Shown piece after piece: positions 2,422 through 35,313 of a stretch of DNA of 40,987 bases. The notes below the pieces were generated by a model. It saw nothing but the letters and a program-made list of their open reading frames with translations, did not search any database and was not told the origin of the DNA. Position 1 is the first letter of the stretch, and each line of letters begins with the position of its first letter. A program made the translations under genes and the position numbers. Source of the DNA: a virus; IMG/VR virus record IMGVR_UViG_3300025687_000106, positions 1-40,987 of that record; one strand, 5' to 3'.

Positions 2422-3075
2422 ATGAATAAAAGAGAAAGTTTAATATTTTATAGAAGTTTCTATGAAGCTATAAAAGAATTAGATATAGAGAATCAATGAA
2501 AAATTTATAATGCAATATTTAAATATTGATTAGACTTTATTGAACCTAATTTAGAATGAATATCTAAAACTATATTCACTTTAATTAAACCTCAATTAGA
2601 TGCAAATATTAAGCGATTTAAAAATTGAAGTATAGAAAAAAAAAGCAAAACAGAAGCAAAACAGAAGCAAAAAATAAGCAAAGTACAAGCTAATAACAAT
2701 AACAATAACAATAACAATAACAATAACAATAACAATAACAATAACAATAACAATAACAATAACAAAGAAATAGAGATAGTCACAACTGAAGTTGCTCCCA
2801 AAAAATTAACATTAGAAGAATATATAAAAAAAGAATTTAGTTTAGATTTTATAAAAGAAGTATATGATAAATTTTGATTATCAAAAAAAGAATTTAAAGA
2901 AGAATGTAATGCTTTCGTTGAAAAATGGAAAGAAAAATCTCCAAATTGAAAAAAAGAAAGATGGGAGAAAGAAAAAACATTTGACCCAAAGTTGAGATTT
3001 AGAACATGGATGAGAAATAGTAAGAAATGGAATAAAGTATGAGATAAACAAAAAAATAAAACTATTATTATTTAA
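2422..3075 (+). CDS. DUF6291-like replication-module protein with a 24-Asn run
   Basis: The first ~70 residues (ESLIFYRSFYEAIKEL, then GKIYNAIFKYGL and IKPQLDANIKRFKNG) match the DUF6291 pattern seen in phage replisome-organiser-like proteins. A basic linker leads into exactly 24 consecutive Asn (residues 91-114), then a second helical, Trp- and Lys-rich domain. The Asn tract separates two folded regions, like a flexible linker. The gene is preceded by an attenuator leader. I infer a DNA replication role from the family; DNA binding is not shown. Confidence 0.75.
2692..2763 (+). repeat. (AATAAC)12 hexanucleotide tract encoding Asn24
   Basis: AAT and AAC alternate perfectly for 72 bp. Slippage by 6 bp would keep the frame and change linker length, so length polymorphism between close relatives is expected. 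Confidence 0.95.
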
Positions 3076-4694: not shown

Positions 4695-4907
4695 ATGAAA
4701 AGGTATAAAATTGTAAATATAACTGAGGAGAAAATAGTTTGATACTTTTCTGAAGATTGAGCAAAGGATTTTGTTTTAAAGAAAAATCCTAATGAACGTT
4801 TGTATCTTGAATCAATGTTTTGAAATATTGTTACATCAGTTACTGATACAAATACAAATGAAATTTTTGTAATATGGGAAGTGCAAGAAGGGAACAAAAG
4901 TGAGTAA
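4695..4907 (+). CDS. unknown small protein (70 aa)
   Basis: First gene of the nucleotide-metabolism operon. The sequence (KIVNITEEKIVGYFSEDGAKDFVLKKNPN) looks like a small beta-rich domain. The start abuts a T-run without a Shine-Dalgarno sequence. No family recognised. Confidence 0.55.
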
Positions 4908-4929
4908 TTTATTTAGTAAATTTAATAAA

Positions 4930-5373
4930 ATGATAAAATTTTTGAAAATTTGAGATACAAAAACACCTACAAGAGGTACAGAATATTCATCAGGGATAGA
5001 TATATATATTCCTAATGATTTTGAAACAACTACAATGAAAGTATGAGATACTATTCTTATACCGACAAGATTAAAATGTATTATAGAACCATGATTTGAT
5101 TTCACACTTAAAGAAAAAAGTTGAGTAGCTTTAAAGAAAAATTTACAAGTTTGAAGTTGTGTAATTGATGCTGATTATAGAGGTGAGTTTAATATACATT
5201 TTACAAAAATAGCTTGAGAACCTATAGAATTAAAAGCTTGAGATAAAATAGTTCAGTGAATTGTAAGACCAGTTGTATTATGAGATATTGAAATGATTTC
5301 TGAAGAAGAATTTGAAAAAGAAAATAATACAATGAGAGGTTCTGGTTGATTTTGAAGTACATGAAATAGATAA
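4930..5373 (+). CDS. dut: dUTPase (trimeric, dUTP diphosphatase)
   Basis: Hydrolyses dUTP to dUMP and PPi, keeping uracil out of DNA and feeding dUMP. All five motifs are visible in order: I (SSGID, 20-24), II (KSGVA, 63-67), III (G..VIDADYRGE, 75-86), IV (DKIVQGI, 105-111) and V (RGSGGFGSTG, 136-145). Several glycines of motifs II-V are UGA, which makes this gene the clearest proof of the code. Length 147 aa is typical. A GTG at 4900 would add 10 residues; I chose the ATG because motif I then sits at the usual distance from the start. Confidence 0.97.
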
Positions 5374-5756: not shown

Positions 5757-6009
5757 TGAATGAAAAGCGGCTTTACAATATATACAACCAGATTTTTTAT
5801 TACAAATGTGAGAAGTATTAAGAATGTGAGCTGAAAAATATAAACCTATGTCATGGGTTTGAGTTGATACAGAACTCCACTATGCAAGTGCTATGAGACA
5901 TTTATTAGCTTGGAAGAAATGAGAATTAGTAGATAAAGAAAGTTGATTATCTCATCTTATTCATGCGGCTTGTAATTTACATTTTATACATTATAACGAA
6001 AAAAAATAA
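5722..6009 (+). CDS. DUF5664 dNTP nucleotidohydrolase-like protein
   Basis: Carries the DUF5664 signature GAEKYKPMSW, then ELHYASAMRHLLAW, GESGLSHLIHAACN-like segment (here KESGLSHLIHAACNL). These proteins are annotated as dATP/dGTP diphosphohydrolases or pyrophosphohydrolases in the MazG fold. The 95-aa length is normal. The frame overlaps the MazG gene end by 35 bp and the next gene's ATG by 1 bp, so this is a compact nucleotide-pool cassette. Confidence 0.85.
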
Positions 6010-7073
6010 TGATATATATAATCCCATTAGGAGACCAATTCCCTACAACGCAATTATTAGATTATAATAAAATGAGACCTGATGTTTACTATATATTACA
6101 TTCTTTAGAATGAGAAGAAGTAAAAATAATATGTAATACAAGAAATAAATATCAGATAGAAAATAAACATTATAATTTATTGGATTATAATGAATTAGAT
6201 TTAAAAATAAATGAAAATGATATACTTATTATATACAATACACCTTTTATTAATTTTTGATGATTATGGTGAAATGAATATAAGAAACAAATAGAATTTA
6301 TTAATAGATTTAATAATAATAAAGTTTATACATATGTTTTTGATTTAAATAAATCTTTTAGTTTTAAAATGATAAATAAGATTTGTGATAAATTTAATTT
6401 AGAAAAACAAAAAACTATAGATATTATTTCAAATTCTACATTTTTAAGTTGAAATTTATATAATAGAGATAAAATGATAGAAATATATTCAGAACAATGA
6501 ATAAATGTAAAAGAATTTATTTATATACCTGTTATATGAAATGTAAGAAATTTAATAGAATATAAAGAAATAAAAGAAGAACCACTTTATGATACTATTT
6601 ATTATTGAACTACTCGTTGATGAGCAAGAAATAAATTTATAAAAAAGTATTATGAAGATATGGAATGAAATCATTTATTAATATGACCATGGAATAAAAT
6701 ATTAAATAATGATAATCACTTTTATAAAAGCAAAACACAATTTAATGAATTATATAATCTTATTAATAATTCTAAGGTATCTATAATGACGTGAGATGAA
6801 AGTTATTATAACAATAGTATACATCATAGATTAATTGAATTAAGTTTATGTGGTACACTTATTCTTATTGATTATGATTATGATATAGAATATAAAATAT
6901 TTTGAGAAGAAAATAAACATTGGTATATTGAGAATAAAGAAGATGTACATAATATGATAAAATTTTTAAAAAATAATCCTAAATTAAGAACAAAATATAT
7001 AAAATATCAAAGAGAACTTTTAGAACAAAAATTTAATACTTATACAAAATTACAATATGAAAGATTTATATAA
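6009..7073 (+). CDS. GT-B-like glycosyltransferase, possible DNA-base glucosyltransferase
   Basis: 354 aa. The C-terminal half has the CgeB/GT-B-type layout: IYYGTTRGGARNKF (a loop like the second nucleotide-binding domain start), then LLIGPW, then SKVSIMTGDESYYNNSIHHRLIELSLCGTLILID and a helical tail with NPKLRTKYIKYQRELL. The N-terminal half is a Rossmann-like domain. It shares 17 bp with the downstream thymidylate-synthase-family gene, so the two are translationally linked. That pairing recalls phages that glucosylate hydroxymethylated bases. Alternative: a surface or polysaccharide glycosyltransferase. Confidence 0.72.
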
Positions 7074-7890
7074 AAATATATTAAGAGATTTATTAGAAAA
7101 TTGAAATGACTCTGCACCAAGATGACAAAATATAAAAGAATTACTTAATTTTAGTGTAAAAATAGATGATATACTTAATGTATGATATGAATATCCATCA
7201 AGAAAATTTCTATATAAATATATATCAAGTGAATTATTATGGTATCTTTCATGAGATTTATCAGTAGATAATATATGACAATATGCTAATTTATGGAATA
7301 CTATTCAAAATGAAGATTGATTAGTAAATTCAAATTATTGATATTTAGTATTTTATAGAGATATTTTAACAAATAATTGATGAAATCAATACGAATGGGC
7401 ACTTAATAGTTTAAAACAAGATAAAGAAAGTAGACAAGCATTTATAAGATATAATCATGATTGATGTCAAGAACTATTTGAAAAAGATGTGATATGTACA
7501 TATTATCAACAATTTTTTATAAGAGATAATCAATTACATTGTATTAACTCAATGAGAAGTAATGATATTATATATGGATTTACTGCGGATGTTGTATGGT
7601 TTAGTTTAGTACATCAAAGTTTATATTTAGATTTAAAAGAAACTTATCCTGAATTAGAACTATGATGTATGTGGCATAATGCTAATTCAATGCATATATA
7701 TGAACCAATGTTTAATAAAGCTAAACAACTTATTTTAGAAGAATGAACAAATATAAAAATAGAACTGAAACAATCTTTATATGAACAATTAGATAAAGAT
7801 TATGATAAATTATGGGAAATACTAAAATATACTACAAACTATAAACAATTTATTGAAAATAACTTTTTTATTAAAATAACAAAAGAATAA
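7057..7890 (+). CDS. thymidylate-synthase family enzyme, predicted dCMP hydroxymethylase
   Basis: 277 aa with the core of the ThyA fold: catalytic Cys147 in DVICTYYQQFFI, phosphate-binding R167-S168 in SMRSND, and H213-Y215 in MHIY. At the position of the Asn that selects dUMP in thymidylate synthase (E. coli LPFN) this protein has Asp178 (FTAD). An Asp there is the known hallmark of T4-type dCMP hydroxymethylase. The Pro before the catalytic Cys is Ile. I therefore predict 5-hydroxymethyl-dCMP formation. Neighbours (dUTPase, MazG, glycosyltransferase) fit a modified-cytosine pathway. Confidence 0.85.
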
Positions 7891-8063
7891 TGAAACAACT
7901 CCTAACTAATAAACAATTCAATAATGCTATAAAACAATTAGAAGATGTTCTTAAAAAAAGATGATATGAACTACTTTTTAATAATACATGATTTAATATA
8001 ATAGAAAAACCTAAAATAGAATTTAAGTCTATGAAAAATCAGGAAACTAAAAATAAGACATAA
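7890..8063 (+). CDS. small basic protein (57 aa)
   Basis: Starts on the last base of the preceding stop codon. Mainly helical and Lys-rich. Its final codons lie inside the 55-bp conserved motif at 8051-8105. No family recognised. Confidence 0.5.
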
Positions 8064-8105
8064 AAACCGGATTAACTAAACTTAATTATATCTATTGTGG
8101 TAACT
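8051..8105 (+). other. conserved noncoding motif, copy 1
   Basis: Shares AAATAAGACATAAAAAC (17/17) and TATTGTGGTAACT (13/13) with 32702-32754, with 24-26 bp between the two blocks in both copies. The downstream part can fold: TGTG/CACA here, ATTGT/ACAAT in copy 2. Both copies lie upstream of a TTTACA promoter and beside one of the two leader-RNA modules. Function unknown. Confidence 0.75.
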
Positions 8106-8187: not shown

Positions 8188-8215
8188 TTTACATTTTAAA
8201 ATAATTAATTAATAT
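8188..8215 (+). promoter_or_regulatory. promoter TTTACA-N16-TAATAT
   Basis: TTTACA 8188-8193, TAATAT 8210-8215. The expected start near 8222 coincides with the palindrome TATCATTTAATGATA (8221-8235), so the RNA would begin with a hairpin. Confidence 0.78.
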
Positions 8216-8220
8216 ATAAA

Positions 8221-8327
8221 TATCATTTAATGATACACAAAACATAAACCTCATAGTGTTTGAAGTCTATCCAACTTAGTACACTATGGATAGACGCTAA
8301 GTAATAGATTTTAAATATATAGAGGTT
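8221..8327 (+). ncRNA. pseudoknotted leader RNA, module 1
   Basis: Three interleaved helices: A 8252-8259 (CATAGTGT) with A' 8281-8288; B 8265-8272 (GTCTATCC) with B' 8288-8295; C 8274-8279 (ACTTAG) with C' 8297-8302. One base (8288) is shared by A' and B'. AACCTC 8247-8252 can pair with GAGGTT 8322-8327 as an outer helix. AACTTAGT 8273-8280 is also perfectly complementary to the terminator 5' arm ACTAAGTT 8333-8340, so C can choose between C' and the terminator. Module 2 on the minus strand at 32.5 kb has the same order with different sequences. Confidence 0.8.
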
Positions 8328-8368
8328 AAAAAACTAAGTTGGTATTAATTTATTAACTTAGTTTTTTT
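8328..8368 (+). terminator. leader terminator abutting the start codon
   Basis: A-run and ACTAAGTT pair with AACTTAGT and a T-run; the seven Ts end immediately before the ATG at 8369. There is no room for a Shine-Dalgarno sequence. The hairpin likely limits read-through into the gene. Confidence 0.8.
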
Positions 8369-8941
8369 ATGCAATTAGTTAAAGATATAAATACATTTTT
8401 TAGAAAAGATAAACAATATTGAATAAATGAATTATTTAAAGTAATGTATTCATTTTGTATTGAACAAAATAATTGTTTTATGTTAACGAGTACATATAAA
8501 ACTAAATGATTAAATAGAAATAATCATAGAAAAATAATGTGATTATTAAAAAAATATAAATTTGTAAAAAGTTGGAAAGTATATAATTCTAAATATAAAA
8601 AGAAATGTACTTACTATAGTTTATCCACAAAATTATATAATATATGTAGAAAAATATCAACAAAATTAGTTAATAAATATAATTTTATACAATTACATAA
8701 TGATATTAATATAAATGATGTAAAAATATTTATAAAAAATATATATAAAAAAACTGAATTTATTATTGATACTAATACTAAAATAACGAAACATATTTTT
8801 AGATTAAAATGAATAATCTATAAATTATTTAGAGATAATCAATGAATAAAAATATCACAAAATATATGATTTAATAAAATAAGAATATATAATTTTATTG
8901 AATTTAATAATTTAGTAATGAAATGATATGAAAAACAATAA
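8369..8941 (+). CDS. leader-controlled basic protein, module 1 (winged-helix-like)
   Basis: 190 aa, Lys-rich. The N-terminal ~85 residues (YGINELFKVMY, KTKGLNRNNHRKIMGLLKKY, then KSWKVYN and CTYYSLS) read like a winged helix: helices followed by a beta wing. A second basic alpha/beta part follows. It is clearly paralogous to the minus-strand gene at 31914-32462, with roughly half of the first 85 residues identical by eye, including DIN.FF, YGI.ELFK, KGLNRN and KSWK. Function unknown: autoregulatory DNA/RNA-binding protein or a toxin of a type III-like pair. Its end overlaps the next gene by 14 bp. Confidence 0.8.
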
Positions 8942-14759: not shown

Positions 14760-15098
14760 ATGTCAATAATATACTGAAACTGAAACTGATACTGATATTG
14801 AAACTGAAACTGAAACTGATACTGATACTGATACTGATACTGATACTGATACTGAGACTGAAACTGATACTGAGACTGAAACTGATACTGAGACTGAAAC
14901 TGATACTGAGACTGAAACTGAAACTGATACTGAAACTGATACTGAGACTGAAACTGATACTGAGACTGAAACTGATACTGAGACTGACACTGAAACTGAA
15001 ACTGATACTGATACTGAAACTGATACTGAGACTGAAACTGATACTGAGACTGAAACTGAGACTATAATAAAATAGTTAAAACTTTAATTACTAAATAA
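14760..15098 (+). CDS. Gly-X dipeptide-repeat protein, UGA at every second codon
   Basis: Read with UGA=Gly, ATG 14760 opens a 112-aa protein: five leader residues, then 48 Gly-X units with X = Asn, Tyr or Asp, then a short tail. A higher-order unit Gly-Asp-Gly-Asn-Gly-Tyr recurs. It has a family 1 variant cassette at its start, and the next gene begins 7 bp after its stop. The frames giving Thr-Asp/Glu and Leu-Lys/Ile are also open across the tract, but lack a start with this context. A disordered, sticky or silk-like protein is the natural reading. Alternatively the DNA repeat itself matters. Confidence 0.7.
14775..15062 (+). repeat. 288-bp hexanucleotide repeat ACTGAN
   Basis: Forty-eight uninterrupted 6-bp units TGANAC-type, with N mainly A, T or G and one C, and one TAT variant. 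Many units are grouped as 18-bp ACTGAG-ACTGAA-ACTGAT blocks. Size changes by unit slippage would keep frame. Confidence 0.95.
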
Positions 15099-30291: not shown

Positions 30292-31917
30292 ATGAATAAA
30301 GAGAAAGAAATAGTTTCATTGGAACAATTACATTTACAAAAAATACAAAAAATTATTAAAGAAAAATGTAAAATTTTAAATGAAGCAGCAAAATCTGATG
30401 AAACTAAACAAGTACTTATAGAAATATGTAAAAAAGACCCTATCTACTTTTTTACTTATTTTTTAGTTACAGACCGTAATCCTGGTTTAATTCCTGAACA
30501 ATATTGAAATGAAATACCTTTTATACTATTTGAATTTCAAGAAGAATTTATTAAAGATGCTTGGGATTGTATATTAATGTGAAGATTACCTCCTGAAGAA
30601 AGAACTGAACCAACTGATATGTTTAGTGAAAAATCTCGTCAAATGTGATTCTCATGGTTATTTGCTTGATTACAACTTTATGCTTATATATTTCATGATA
30701 TGAAATCTTTATATATATCAATGAAAGCAGATGAGGTAGATAGAGCATGAGATATTAAATCACATTTTGAAAAGATTCGTTTTATGATACGTAATCTACC
30801 TCAATGGATATTACCAAAATGATTAAATAAAGAATCAGGTACAGAACATAATAAATCTATGGTTATTTCTCGTTGAGATTGAACTTGAGTTATTAAATGA
30901 GAATCTGCTAATCCTAATGCTTGAAGATGAGGTACTACAGCTTTTACAATCTTTGATGAAATGGCTTTTATGCAATATGCTCAAGCTATTAATATGGCAA
31001 TAGCTTCTTCTACTCCTTGTCGTTTCTTTAATAGTACACCAAACTGAGAATGAAATGAGTATTATAGAATGAGAAAATTAGCAGTTGATTGAAAAATAAG
31101 ATATCATTCTTGCATGCGGTACGAAAATCCTTTTTATACTAAAGAATGGTATAAATGGAGAACTGAGTCTATGACTAAAACCCAAATTGCTCAAGAAATT
31201 TTAATAGACTATAATACTGCATTAGTTTGACGTGTATATCCAGAATATAAACATTGAACAGAATTAATTGAATATGATGATAGTTTACCGTTGTATATAG
31301 GGATTGATAATTCACATGGTGGTCAAGATAACAATGCTCTCGTTGTATTACAAAAAGATTGACATTATTTTAATATTATTGATAGTTGTGAATTCAATTG
31401 TAGTCCTAGACAAATGGCAGAAATAATGGCTAAACAACCTACTATACAAATGAGTAAAAAACAATTGGATTTTTATAATAAATATAGAGAAATGAAATTA
31501 CCTATATTTGTAAGTGATTGTTATGATACACATACTTCAGTTTGAGATAATACAATATTTTGATATTATCAAGATGTATGAATATTTTTAAATATACCAT
31601 CTACTAGAAAAAAACAAGAACAAATACAAATAGTAAGTTCTAATTTACATAGAGTAAGAGTAAGTGAAACTTGTGCAGATTTTAGTTCATGTATACAAAA
31701 TTCTATTTATCCTGAAATTAAAGAAAATAGTATGAGAACTACTCCAGCTACTTTACCAGTTCATTCTTGGGCGAGTCATATAAGGACAAGTTTTGAATAT
31801 TTAATTGTATGGTTAATAGAACAAGAAAAATATACTAATGTAAAACCTAAGAGAATAGCAACAGAAGAAAGAAATCCAATAACTTGAGAAGTAGAAACTA
31901 AATATGTCTATATTTAA
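30292..31917 (+). CDS. terL: terminase large subunit
   Basis: Packaging ATPase/nuclease, 541 aa. Walker-A-like SRQMGFS at residues 115-121 (Gly from UGA), a coupling region with SMKADEVDRAGDIKSHFEKIRF, Walker B TIFDEMAF with D222-E223, then STPNGEGNEYY. The nuclease part begins at YIGIDNSHGGQDNNALVVL (D339) and includes FVSDCYDTH with a later acidic residue, as in RNase H-like terminases. The length is normal. It is unusual that the minus-strand gene is inserted between it and the portal; their stop codons overlap. Confidence 0.93.
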
Positions 31918-32462
31918 GTTTTTTTCATAATTAAATGATTAAATTCAAATATTGTATATATTGTTTTTCTTAAATTATTTCTTTCTGTTATTAACCATAG
32001 TCATTTACTTTTAAATAAACAATATAAAACTCATCGTAACCTAAATAATCTTTTTCACTCAAATATAATAAATTCAGTTTTAGGATACATTTTTTTTATA
32101 AATTGTTGTATCTTTTCGATTCTCATTCATTCTTTTAATTCAATATATGTAGATTTTTTACTTAATTTAACTATAATATCTCTACAAATCATATATAAAT
32201 CATTACTTATACTTCTATAAGTACATACTTTTCAATATGTTTTATTATATTTTTTCCAACTCTTTATTTTTCAAGCTTTTTCTAATAAATCTAATATTTT
32301 TCTTAAACTATTTCTATTTAATCATTTAACTTGATATGTAGTAGTTAATAAAAAACTATTATTATTTTCTATACTCTTAGTATAAAAAGTCTTAAATAAT
32401 TCAGTTATTCAATAATCTTTATTTTTTTTAAAAAATCAATTTATATCTTGTATTATTCTCAT
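31914..32462 (-). CDS. leader-controlled basic protein, module 2 (winged-helix-like)
   Basis: 182 aa, the only clear minus-strand gene. Paralogue of the 8369 protein: DINGFFKKNKDYGITELFKTFY, QVKGLNRNSLRKILDLLEKAGKIKSWKKYN, CTYRSISNDLYMICRDI, then FIKKMYPKTEFII and IFEFNHLIMK at matching positions. A helix-helix-wing layout is likely in the first 85 residues. It has its own promoter, structured leader and terminator. Its stop overlaps the terL stop. The position between terL and portal is that of a moron. Confidence 0.82.
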
Positions 32463-32465
32463 AAT

Positions 32466-32492
32466 AAAAAAAACTAGTAATTAATACTAGCT
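32466..32492 (-). terminator. leader terminator abutting the module 2 start
   Basis: On the minus strand CTAGTATTAATTACTAG is followed by eight Ts and then ATTATG. AGCTAGT at its 5' side is complementary to ACTAGCT inside the upstream RNA (32578-32572). No Shine-Dalgarno sequence fits. Confidence 0.8.
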
Positions 32493-32612
32493 CTTTTTAT
32501 CTTTTACTAAAATCTTAACATAATAAATCTTTTTTTTCTTCTTAGTGTCTTGACCAAAAGCATAACTAAGAAGCTAGTCAAGACTTACTATGCTAAGGTT
32601 TTTAATTTTAGT
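32493..32612 (-). ncRNA. pseudoknotted leader RNA, module 2
   Basis: On the minus strand, three interleaved helices in the order A-B-C-A'-B'-C': A AGCATA (32594-32589) with A' TATGCT (32564-32559); B GTCTTGAC (32584-32577) with B' GTCAAGAC (32554-32547); C CTTCTTAGT (32573-32565) with C' ACTAAGAAG (32546-32538). B pairs 8/8 and C pairs 9/9. The segment ACTAGCT (32578-32572) can instead pair with the terminator 5' arm. Same topology as module 1 with different sequences, so pairing is conserved by covariation. Confidence 0.8.
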
Positions 32613-32618
32613 AATTAC

Positions 32619-32646
32619 TTTATATATATTTTTTTTAGTTTGTAAA
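32619..32646 (-). promoter_or_regulatory. minus-strand promoter TTTACA-N16-TATAAA
   Basis: TTTACA on 32646-32641, spacer 32640-32625 (16), TATAAA on 32624-32619. It fires toward the leader RNA and gene of module 2. Confidence 0.75.
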
Positions 32647-32701
32647 ATCTTTTTTATATAATAATAATAAATTATATAATTTAAGTATGTTGTATGAACT
32701 A

Positions 32702-32754
32702 AAATAAGACATAAAAACTTCATTATCTAAACAATATATATTATTGTGGTAACT
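32702..32754 (+). other. conserved noncoding motif, copy 2
   Basis: AAATAAGACATAAAAAC at 32702-32718 and TATTGTGGTAACT at 32742-32754 match copy 1 at 8051-8105. Inverted ATTGT/ACAAT can form a small hairpin. It lies between the divergent promoters at 32646 (-) and 32785 (+). Confidence 0.75.
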
Positions 32755-32784
32755 GAAACAATTGTAAAACTTTTTTTTAAAATA

Positions 32785-32812
32785 TTTACAAAATAATACA
32801 AAAATATAAAAT
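32785..32812 (+). promoter_or_regulatory. promoter TTTACA-N16-TAAAAT for the head genes
   Basis: TTTACA 32785-32790, TAAAAT 32807-32812. TAACAT at 32821-32826 pairs with ATGTTA at 32840-32845, which contains the portal start codon, so the AUG may be partly occluded. Confidence 0.78.
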
Positions 32813-32839
32813 AAAATATATAACATTAACTTAAAAAAT

Positions 32840-35174: not shown

Positions 35175-35202
35175 TTTACAAAATTCTTTATGATATTAAA
35201 AT
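35175..35202 (+). promoter_or_regulatory. promoter TTTACA-N16-TAAAAT for the capsid genes
   Basis: TTTACA 35175-35180 begins immediately after the preceding stop; TAAAAT 35197-35202. Confidence 0.8.
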
Positions 35203-35227
35203 ATAAAAAAGTTCTTTAACATAAATA

Positions 35228-35308
35228 CTAATTAATTGCTAGTGATTATAAAGAAATTTATAGTTACTATGTAGCGAATTAGCTACACATTTATTCGTTA
35301 ATAATTAG
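35228..35308 (+). promoter_or_regulatory. three-way-junction leader of the scaffold/capsid operon
   Basis: Outer helix CTAATTA 35228-35234 with TAATTAG 35302-35308. Inside: a 13-bp hairpin (35240-35269) with a GAAA tetraloop, all pairs Watson-Crick or G-U, and TGTAGC/GCTACA (35270-35287) with loop GAATTA. The scaffold gene begins 5 bp after the outer helix. It may stabilise or regulate the mRNA for the most abundant virion proteins. Confidence 0.72.
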
Positions 35309-35313
35309 ACTCT

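Follow-up and report, generated by a model that had tools for sequence, protein, structure and literature searches.

What decides whether a phage gene is expressed when its start codon directly follows a strong transcription terminator? The question is raised by positions 8221-8368 of the 40,987-base virus record IMGVR_UViG_3300025687_000106, a phage source that is referred to in its whole length as the window. Ahead of the terminator, three pairs of complementary strands occur there in interleaved order, and the same arrangement precedes a second, paralogous gene. The reading favored here, with a probability of about one half, is that each of the two leaders is a cis-acting attenuator that operates by co-transcriptional strand exchange and is off by default.

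Two paralogous genes and their leaders

In this phage TGA codes for glycine: long frames appear in the window under code 25, the canonical C-terminal motif RGSGGFGSTG of the dUTPase (4900-5373) has several of its glycines encoded by TGA, and in seven large genes of the window TGA is the commonest glycine codon (264 versus 87 GGN codons). Because this code is common to the Absconditabacteria, the Gracilibacteria, and most phages predicted for Absconditabacteria (PMC10746230), a host of the Absconditabacteria/Gracilibacteria type is likely, as judged from codon usage. An ORF at 14760-15098 is made up of short tandem repeats in which nearly all residues are Gly, Tyr, Asn, or Asp and contains 48 TGA glycine codons, and the gene at 2422-3075 contains a run of about 25 asparagine codons (AATAAC repeats, 2692-2766). 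At 6009-7890, a beta-glucosyltransferase-like gene is followed by a thymidylate synthase-like gene, a pair that may point to modified, glucosylated DNA bases. The two genes that carry the leaders in question, each called a module together with its leader, are:

8369-8941, plus strand: module 1 gene, 190 amino acids with TGA read as Gly, no database family
31914-32462, minus strand: module 2 gene, 182 amino acids, between terminase and portal, 49% identical to the module 1 gene

Neither protein matched a Pfam, NCBIfam, or PHROG family, and PADLOC returned two weak matches for them, which were neither ToxN nor AbiF. The predicted structures were poor (mean pLDDT 49 and 44). A fold search of the PDB with a low-confidence model gave mostly winged-helix proteins and no match at E <= 0.001, which is a weak hint at a possible N-terminal winged helix in the module 1 protein. 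No relatives of either protein were found by profile and single-sequence scans of IMG/VR and species genomes or by tblastn of phage records, and the protein profile had no match in the nine records behind the related loci described below; the absence of matches carries little weight, since only a few peptide patterns entered the searches and glycines encoded as TGA may conceal a match. As no homologues were found and the paralogous pair alone was at hand, covariation within the exact leader family was not countable.

Both genes are preceded by a promoter-like site and a terminator hairpin:

8188-8215, plus strand: promoter-like site of module 1 (TTTACA 8188-8193, 16 nt, TAATAT 8210-8215), RNA start presumably near 8222
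8328-8344 / 8351-8367, plus strand: 17-bp terminator hairpin of module 1, U run directly 5' of the ATG at 8369 (-15.7 kcal/mol, z = -6.66)
32646-32619, minus strand: promoter-like site of module 2 (TTTACA 32646-32641, 16 nt, TATAAA 32624-32619), RNA start presumably near 32612
32501-32485 / 32479-32463, minus strand: terminator hairpin of module 2, directly 5' of the ATG at 32462 (-16.6 kcal/mol, z = -7.33)

From the putative start to the ATG the leaders would measure about 147 nt (module 1) and about 150 nt (module 2). They have in common this length, the TTTACA/AT-rich promoter-like site, the order of the helices, the 17-bp terminator, and the U run adjoining the ATG; no convincing sequence similarity was seen between their folded parts, which share the arrangement alone. 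Since promoter-like sites overall occur at chance frequency in the AT-rich DNA of the window, the promoter of module 1 is a candidate only. An earlier note, made from the sequence of this DNA, had proposed a leader RNA between the promoter-like site and the ATG with a strong terminator hairpin, and this proposal is supported; in both modules an intrinsic terminator lies in the leader ahead of the start codon, as in transcription attenuators. Upstream of both promoter-like sites a further element, E, was found:

8052-8105, plus strand: first copy of element E (AATAAGACATAAAAAC...TATTGTGGTAACT), 5' of the module 1 promoter
32703-32754, plus strand: second copy of element E, beyond the module 2 promoter on its upstream side, in opposite orientation to the module 2 gene

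Element E has a size of 52-54 nt, with exactly conserved ends of 16 and 13 nt and about 24 nt between them, and its two copies are in opposite orientation relative to their genes. Searches for it among other viral contigs and at the related loci gave no further copy, and blastn of leader 1 and element E yielded partial AT-rich matches of low identity only. Module 2 (31914-32839) looks like a cassette inserted between terminase and portal, because these two genes are 35-78 nt apart in five relatives (located through their terminase) versus 922 nt in the window, where the cassette lies between them.

Interleaved strands and the rod fold

The complementary strands of the two leaders are the following:

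8252-8259 (CATAGTGT) / 8281-8288 (ACACTATG), plus strand: helix A/A' of module 1
8265-8272 (GTCTATCC) / 8288-8295 (GGATAGAC), plus strand: helix B/B' of module 1
8274-8279 (ACTTAG) / 8297-8302 (CTAAGT), plus strand: helix C/C' of module 1
32594-32589 / 32564-32559, minus strand: helix A/A' of module 2
32584-32577 / 32554-32547, minus strand: helix B/B' of module 2
32573-32565 / 32546-32538, minus strand: helix C/C' of module 2

The earlier note had placed helices A, B, and C of module 1 at these coordinates and in the order A-B-C-A'-B'-C', and all of them are present in the sequence; the related second copy to which it had referred lies at 32538-32594 on the minus strand, as the leader of the paralogue 31914-32462, two points that the note had missed. 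The first scan had suggested a plus-strand element for module 2, which was dropped when the paralogous gene was found on the minus strand. Strict triples were defined as three interleaved helices spanning no more than 75 nt, with a minimum of 6 Watson-Crick bp and 2 G-C pairs per helix. In the 41-kb window such A-B-C-A'-B'-C' triples occur at two places, 8252-8302 and 32538-32594, and both are leaders of the paralogous genes. Dinucleotide shuffles of the window (n = 300) contained a mean of 0.017 triples and in no case two, and shuffling of each leader alone produced a triple in 2 of 20,000 (module 1) and 36 of 20,000 cases (module 2). The complementary strands are real and beyond chance.

Just 3' of C', both leaders contain a strand X that is a second partner for A and B and that, together with an outer stem, had been missed in the earlier note. 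The minimum-energy fold of both modules is a nested rod composed of these parts:

8247-8252 (AACCTC) / 8322-8327 (GAGGTT), plus strand: outer stem, module 1
8256-8270 / 8304-8318 (strand X), plus strand: helix H1, module 1, 15 bp with 4 G-U pairs
8274-8280 / 8296-8302, plus strand: C:C' in the rod, module 1
32614-32605 / 32513-32504, minus strand: outer stem, module 2, 10 bp
32597-32580 / 32531-32514 (strand X), minus strand: helix H1, module 2, 18 bp with 3 G-U pairs
32573-32565 / 32546-32538, minus strand: C:C' in the rod, module 2, 9 bp

On the transcribed strands the rods have z-scores of -6.84 (module 1) and -6.38 (module 2), compared with -2.36 and -3.07 on the opposite strands, and this preference argues for a function of the RNA rather than the DNA. 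Clustered inverted repeats acting at the DNA level, as binding sites of a phage protein or in recombination, would be in keeping with the common element E adjoining both loci, with the apparent insertion at one of them, and with the A-B-C order, which is identical when read on either strand. However, the G-U pairs of H1 exist in the transcribed strand only, the z-scores differ by strand, and terminator and ATG follow in the same orientation at both loci, so that a DNA-level feature appears extremely improbable.

The rod of module 1 has an energy of -28.7 kcal/mol, versus -15.3 kcal/mol with A and -24.0 kcal/mol with B enforced; the respective values for module 2 are -35.0, -15.0, and -27.6 kcal/mol. 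After emergence of the outer stem, the penalty is 13-20 kcal/mol for a fold in which A is enforced and 5-7 kcal/mol for one with B, and at full length rod plus terminator reach -45.6 (module 1) and -51.6 kcal/mol (module 2). These values bear on the view of the earlier note that the helices form a triple pseudoknot rather than nested stems, and on a model based on it, in which A, B, and C would exist together in a static knot that acts as a ligand-binding riboswitch of a new class. The three helices do exist and are interleaved, and the linkers of module 2 are slightly longer than those of module 1. Nevertheless, when nested folds are compared, the rod with strand X is more stable by 5-20 kcal/mol than those that keep A or B. 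In module 1, moreover, A' and B' share base 8288, so that A and B cannot both be complete, and the linkers from C to A', A' to B', and B' to C' measure 0-1 nt. From this geometry we infer that the complete triple pseudoknot would be sterically strained and that a static knot is doubtful. Between the two copies no conserved unpaired core is visible that could form a ligand pocket, and a pseudoknotted riboswitch is regarded as very unlikely.

When the growing transcripts were folded, A:A' appeared first in both modules and B:B' next, followed by the rod with C:C' once X emerges and by the terminator last; the order is that of minimum-energy folds of transcript prefixes, not of a kinetic simulation. 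These predictions suggest that A, B, and C are hairpins replacing one another in turn and not parts of a single static fold.

Possible competition for the terminator arm and known systems

In both modules the B/C junction is complementary to the 5' arm of the terminator:

8271-8280 (CCAACTTAGT) / 8333-8342 (ACTAAGTTGG), plus strand: antiterminator pairing of module 1, 10 bp, perfectly complementary
32578-32572 (ACTAGCT) / 32492-32486 (AGCTAGT), minus strand: antiterminator pairing of module 2, 7 bp, weaker

The perfect complementarity between strand C and the terminator 5' arm, pointed out by the earlier note for module 1, was confirmed and extends to 10 bp with the neighboring bases; it was equalled by 0 of 1000 shuffles (p < 0.001). 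The pairing of leader and arm in module 2 was reached in 42 of 1000 shuffles (p about 0.04) and is marginal. Once the arm has emerged, the antiterminator conformer lies 10.8 (module 1) and 18.2 kcal/mol (module 2) above the rod, and the RNA alone should therefore terminate. The two-state switch suggested previously, in which C:C' permits and pairing of C with the arm prevents the terminator, is possible, and a second strand that could compete for the arm is present, but the switch would not operate at equilibrium, and its "on" state would need kinetics or a bound factor because C:arm lies 11-18 kcal/mol above the rod. In the rod of module 1, C lies beyond a helix of >20 bp, and the spacer between the outer stem and the terminator arm, which starts at 8333, measures no more than 5 nt, so that rod and antiterminator should be mutually exclusive.

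In the proposed attenuator, A and B would pair first with A' and B' as successive hairpins. At this stage the B/C junction would be looped out and might seize the 5' arm of the terminator, causing read-through and turning the gene on. Strand X, made shortly after, would then take A and B, whereupon the long rod would close and lock C with C' at its far end; with the rod closed, the terminator would form and the gene would be off, the state that is energetically the default. The gene would be turned on by any signal preventing X from pairing with A and B; if there is such a signal, it might be the speed of the polymerase, a second RNA, or a protein of the phage or its host, perhaps the gene product itself. 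This reading is favored by two A-B-C sites versus 0.017 expected, by the identical layout and folding order, by the strand-biased rods, by the predicted competing pairing of B/C junction and arm in both modules (strong in one), and by similar leaders in relatives. Against it stand the low stability of the antiterminator relative to the rod and a module 2 pairing marginally beyond chance, because of which the "on" state would rest on some factor or on kinetics. If true, the model would explain why the genes start directly after a terminator, and it would imply attenuators with free sequence in which strand order alone matters. It would also mean that phages sharing the TGA=Gly code of uncultured Absconditabacteria/Gracilibacteria use RNA folding cascades absent from RNA-family libraries, and that a related trick recurs ahead of replication and scaffold-like genes in other phages.

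The dominance of rod and terminator at full length, with the antiterminator far above them, and the marginal antiterminator of module 2 would suit an ordinary strong terminator behind a stable rod RNA, with constant low read-through, no switch, and an interleaving left over from an inverted-repeat origin. Yet the interleaved order arose independently in two dissimilar leaders, far beyond chance, and A/A', B/B', and the 10-bp competitor would be superfluous for a plain terminator, which is why we consider this explanation unlikely, if still a serious contender to the attenuator.

Rfam 15 detected two tRNAs only in the window at curated thresholds and no riboswitch or cis-regulatory class, and at E <= 10 over either leader it gave only matches far below the gathering scores; the remark of the earlier note that it recognized no known riboswitch class holds in Rfam for both leaders. 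The attenuators of plasmid rep genes (pT181, pIP501) combine competing helices with a terminator in the leader and need a counter-transcribed RNA. They resemble the modules, in which these parts likewise precede a gene for a possibly DNA-binding protein, and a counter-transcript from the opposite strand might decide termination here, too. No such RNA is evident, however: the opposite-strand promoter-like site inside the module 1 gene (8660-8632) is one of a kind that occurs at chance frequency in the window, and antisense control does not require that a leader's own upstream strands match its own loop. Antisense control is accordingly rated as highly improbable. Attenuators are a known kind of regulator; for interleaved strands with a downstream competitor in two paralogous leaders, no Rfam family was found, nor any description in an open-access library of papers, whose coverage is limited.

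In the HMP-PP (thiS) riboswitch the aptamer, which has a highly conserved core, is embedded in the terminator stem, and a pseudoknot-bearing alternative fold competes with the intrinsic terminator and leads to read-through when stabilized (PMC6478431). The leaders described here are similar in this competition but differ in that C:C' lies apart from the terminator, three interleaved strands and the competitor X are involved, and no conserved core is visible; neither the thiS-motif core in the terminator stem nor an Rfam match was found in either leader. The yxjA purine riboswitch is not known to contain A-B-C interleaving. Its termination is described as being decided by out-of-equilibrium intermediates and strand exchange as the RNA emerges, which resembles the proposed attenuator, but yxjA has a known purine aptamer (PMC9756952).

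A different use of the same parts would be that the terminated leader itself is the product, a stable rod or pseudoknotted RNA restraining the downstream protein, which would be made by occasional read-through, with the terminator setting the ratio of RNA to mRNA. Such a function is known from type III toxin-antitoxin systems (ToxIN) and from AbiF with the ncRNA RCd22, and the succession of promoter, structured, pseudoknot-capable RNA, intrinsic terminator, and an ORF of similar size (about 185 codons here) is the layout of those loci (PMC5086642; PMC12373285). RCd22 is also a phage-borne RNA that, with its terminator and read-through, lies ahead of a protein gene (PMC12373285). Module 2 moreover resembles an inserted, self-contained cassette, and the RNAs of the modules have different sequences, in contrast to their proteins, which share 49% identity. 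However, tandem repeats in the antitoxin RNA are a key feature of type III systems (PMC5086642), and leader 1 contains no direct repeat, neither leader an exact 9-mer repeat, and module 2 a single weak 15-nt AT-rich repeat pair; a strand that could compete for the terminator arm also sets the leaders apart from ToxIN. A ToxN/AbiQ/TenpN/CptN endoribonuclease was not found at E <= 1 in Pfam, NCBIfam, PHROGs, or PADLOC, a comparison at the sequence level as the structure models are poor. RCd22 contains two copies of a conserved motif and its protein belongs to Abi_2/AbiD/F (PMC12373285); neither was found here, with no match of either gene product to the Abi_2 (AbiD/F) family. Considering also the lack of Pfam, NCBIfam, and PHROG families, the weak PADLOC matches outside ToxN and AbiF, and the similar leaders of related phages, which precede replication and scaffold-like genes and not toxins, an RNA product seems improbable, although it is, with the plain terminator, one of the two main rivals of the attenuator.

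Leaders of similar logic in other phages

Related TGA=Gly phages contain leaders of similar logic ahead of other genes, two of which have the A-B-C order and a terminator before the ATG; unlike in modules 1 and 2, C:C' is the terminator itself in these leaders. We tentatively suggest, at somewhat less than even odds, that TGA=Gly phages and others share an undescribed principle: the loop of a terminator, or of a hairpin competing with it, would be complementary to strands lying upstream, and the order of strand emergence would decide termination. The two A-B-C leaders with their third competitor strand would be its most elaborate form, and gene-specific strands would yield switches without cross-talk. 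In part, these wider leaders substitute for compensatory changes in true homologues.

Within the window, a third leader (2331-2421), which precedes the gene 2422-3075, contains the strand GGTGTGA (2331-2337) matching the terminator loop TCACACC (p = 0.0065). In the homologue of this gene in contig G004 (L016 10460-10560, minus strand), two upstream strands match the terminator loop. Among 13 leader hairpins of the window phage and its relatives, the two C:C' helices included, the loop is complementary to an upstream strand in nine (p <= 0.0135), with p > 0.1 for the other four; this count is descriptive, because the hairpins were picked after viewing the leaders and three are the window's own. 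An enlarged set of 0.5 Mb, which includes near-duplicate contigs, contains 22 places with interleaved pairs of 7-bp helices, compared with an expectation of 4.15, and 18 of the 22 lie no more than 130 nt from a potential start. The set also contains ten interleaved triples versus 3.5 expected from shuffles. Six of these ten triples (L013, one in L016, L017, L032, L053, and L058) lack a terminator-before-ATG arrangement and were set aside as likely chance.

A second recurring arrangement precedes scaffold-like genes, where the 3' arm of a rod overlaps the terminator arm:

35175-35313 of the window: scaffold-like gene leader
about 7960-8060 of L006: scaffold-like gene leader
about 8090-8200 of L007: scaffold-like gene leader
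about 8050-8150 of L010: scaffold-like gene leader
about 8930-9030 of L012: scaffold-like gene leader

In the leaders of L006, L007, and L012, the terminator arm is part of the 3' arm of a rod, and the rod loop matches a strand located upstream. Each contig has its own sequences for this match: CCCCCAC/GTGGGGG in L006 (p = 0.003), ACCCACTA/TAGTGGGT in L007 (p = 0.002), and ATCCCCC/GGGGGAT in L012 (p = 0.09). The leader in the window retains rod and terminator, without a matching strand. GTGGG recurs in the rod loops of the scaffold-like leaders. L012 (RXKB01000065.1) and L021 are phage-like, TGA-using contigs within a MAG named Candidatus Dependentiae, an assignment that is possibly a binning error.

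Homologues of gene 2422 in other IMG/VR phages have a leader terminator in 30 of 52 upstream regions, and in 15 of these 30 the loop complementarity reaches p <= 0.01; as some of the contigs are near-duplicates, the number of independent cases is lower. Eight leaders (L033, L047, L057, L063, L070, L073, L088, and L095) form a group in which an upstream hairpin and the terminator have matching loops, in the manner of kissing loops. Own combinations of these loops pair at 64/64 positions versus 284/448 for crossed ones, with changes on both sides at 8/8 positions, but the blocks were chosen by eye for complementarity, a procedure biased toward own combinations, and L073 did not pass the automatic check of the order. 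Rfam had no match in the leaders of the gene 2422 homologue loci tested. Promoters of the TATATTTG type, found in one set of other-phage leaders that likewise had no Rfam match, suggest Bacteroidota as hosts. Two further leader groups of the same gene family (L029, L032, L039, L058, L089, and L101; L071 and L096) have other conserved cores (e.g., TTGCCAT...GCAC...GTGC...AGCC) and a terminator before the ATG.
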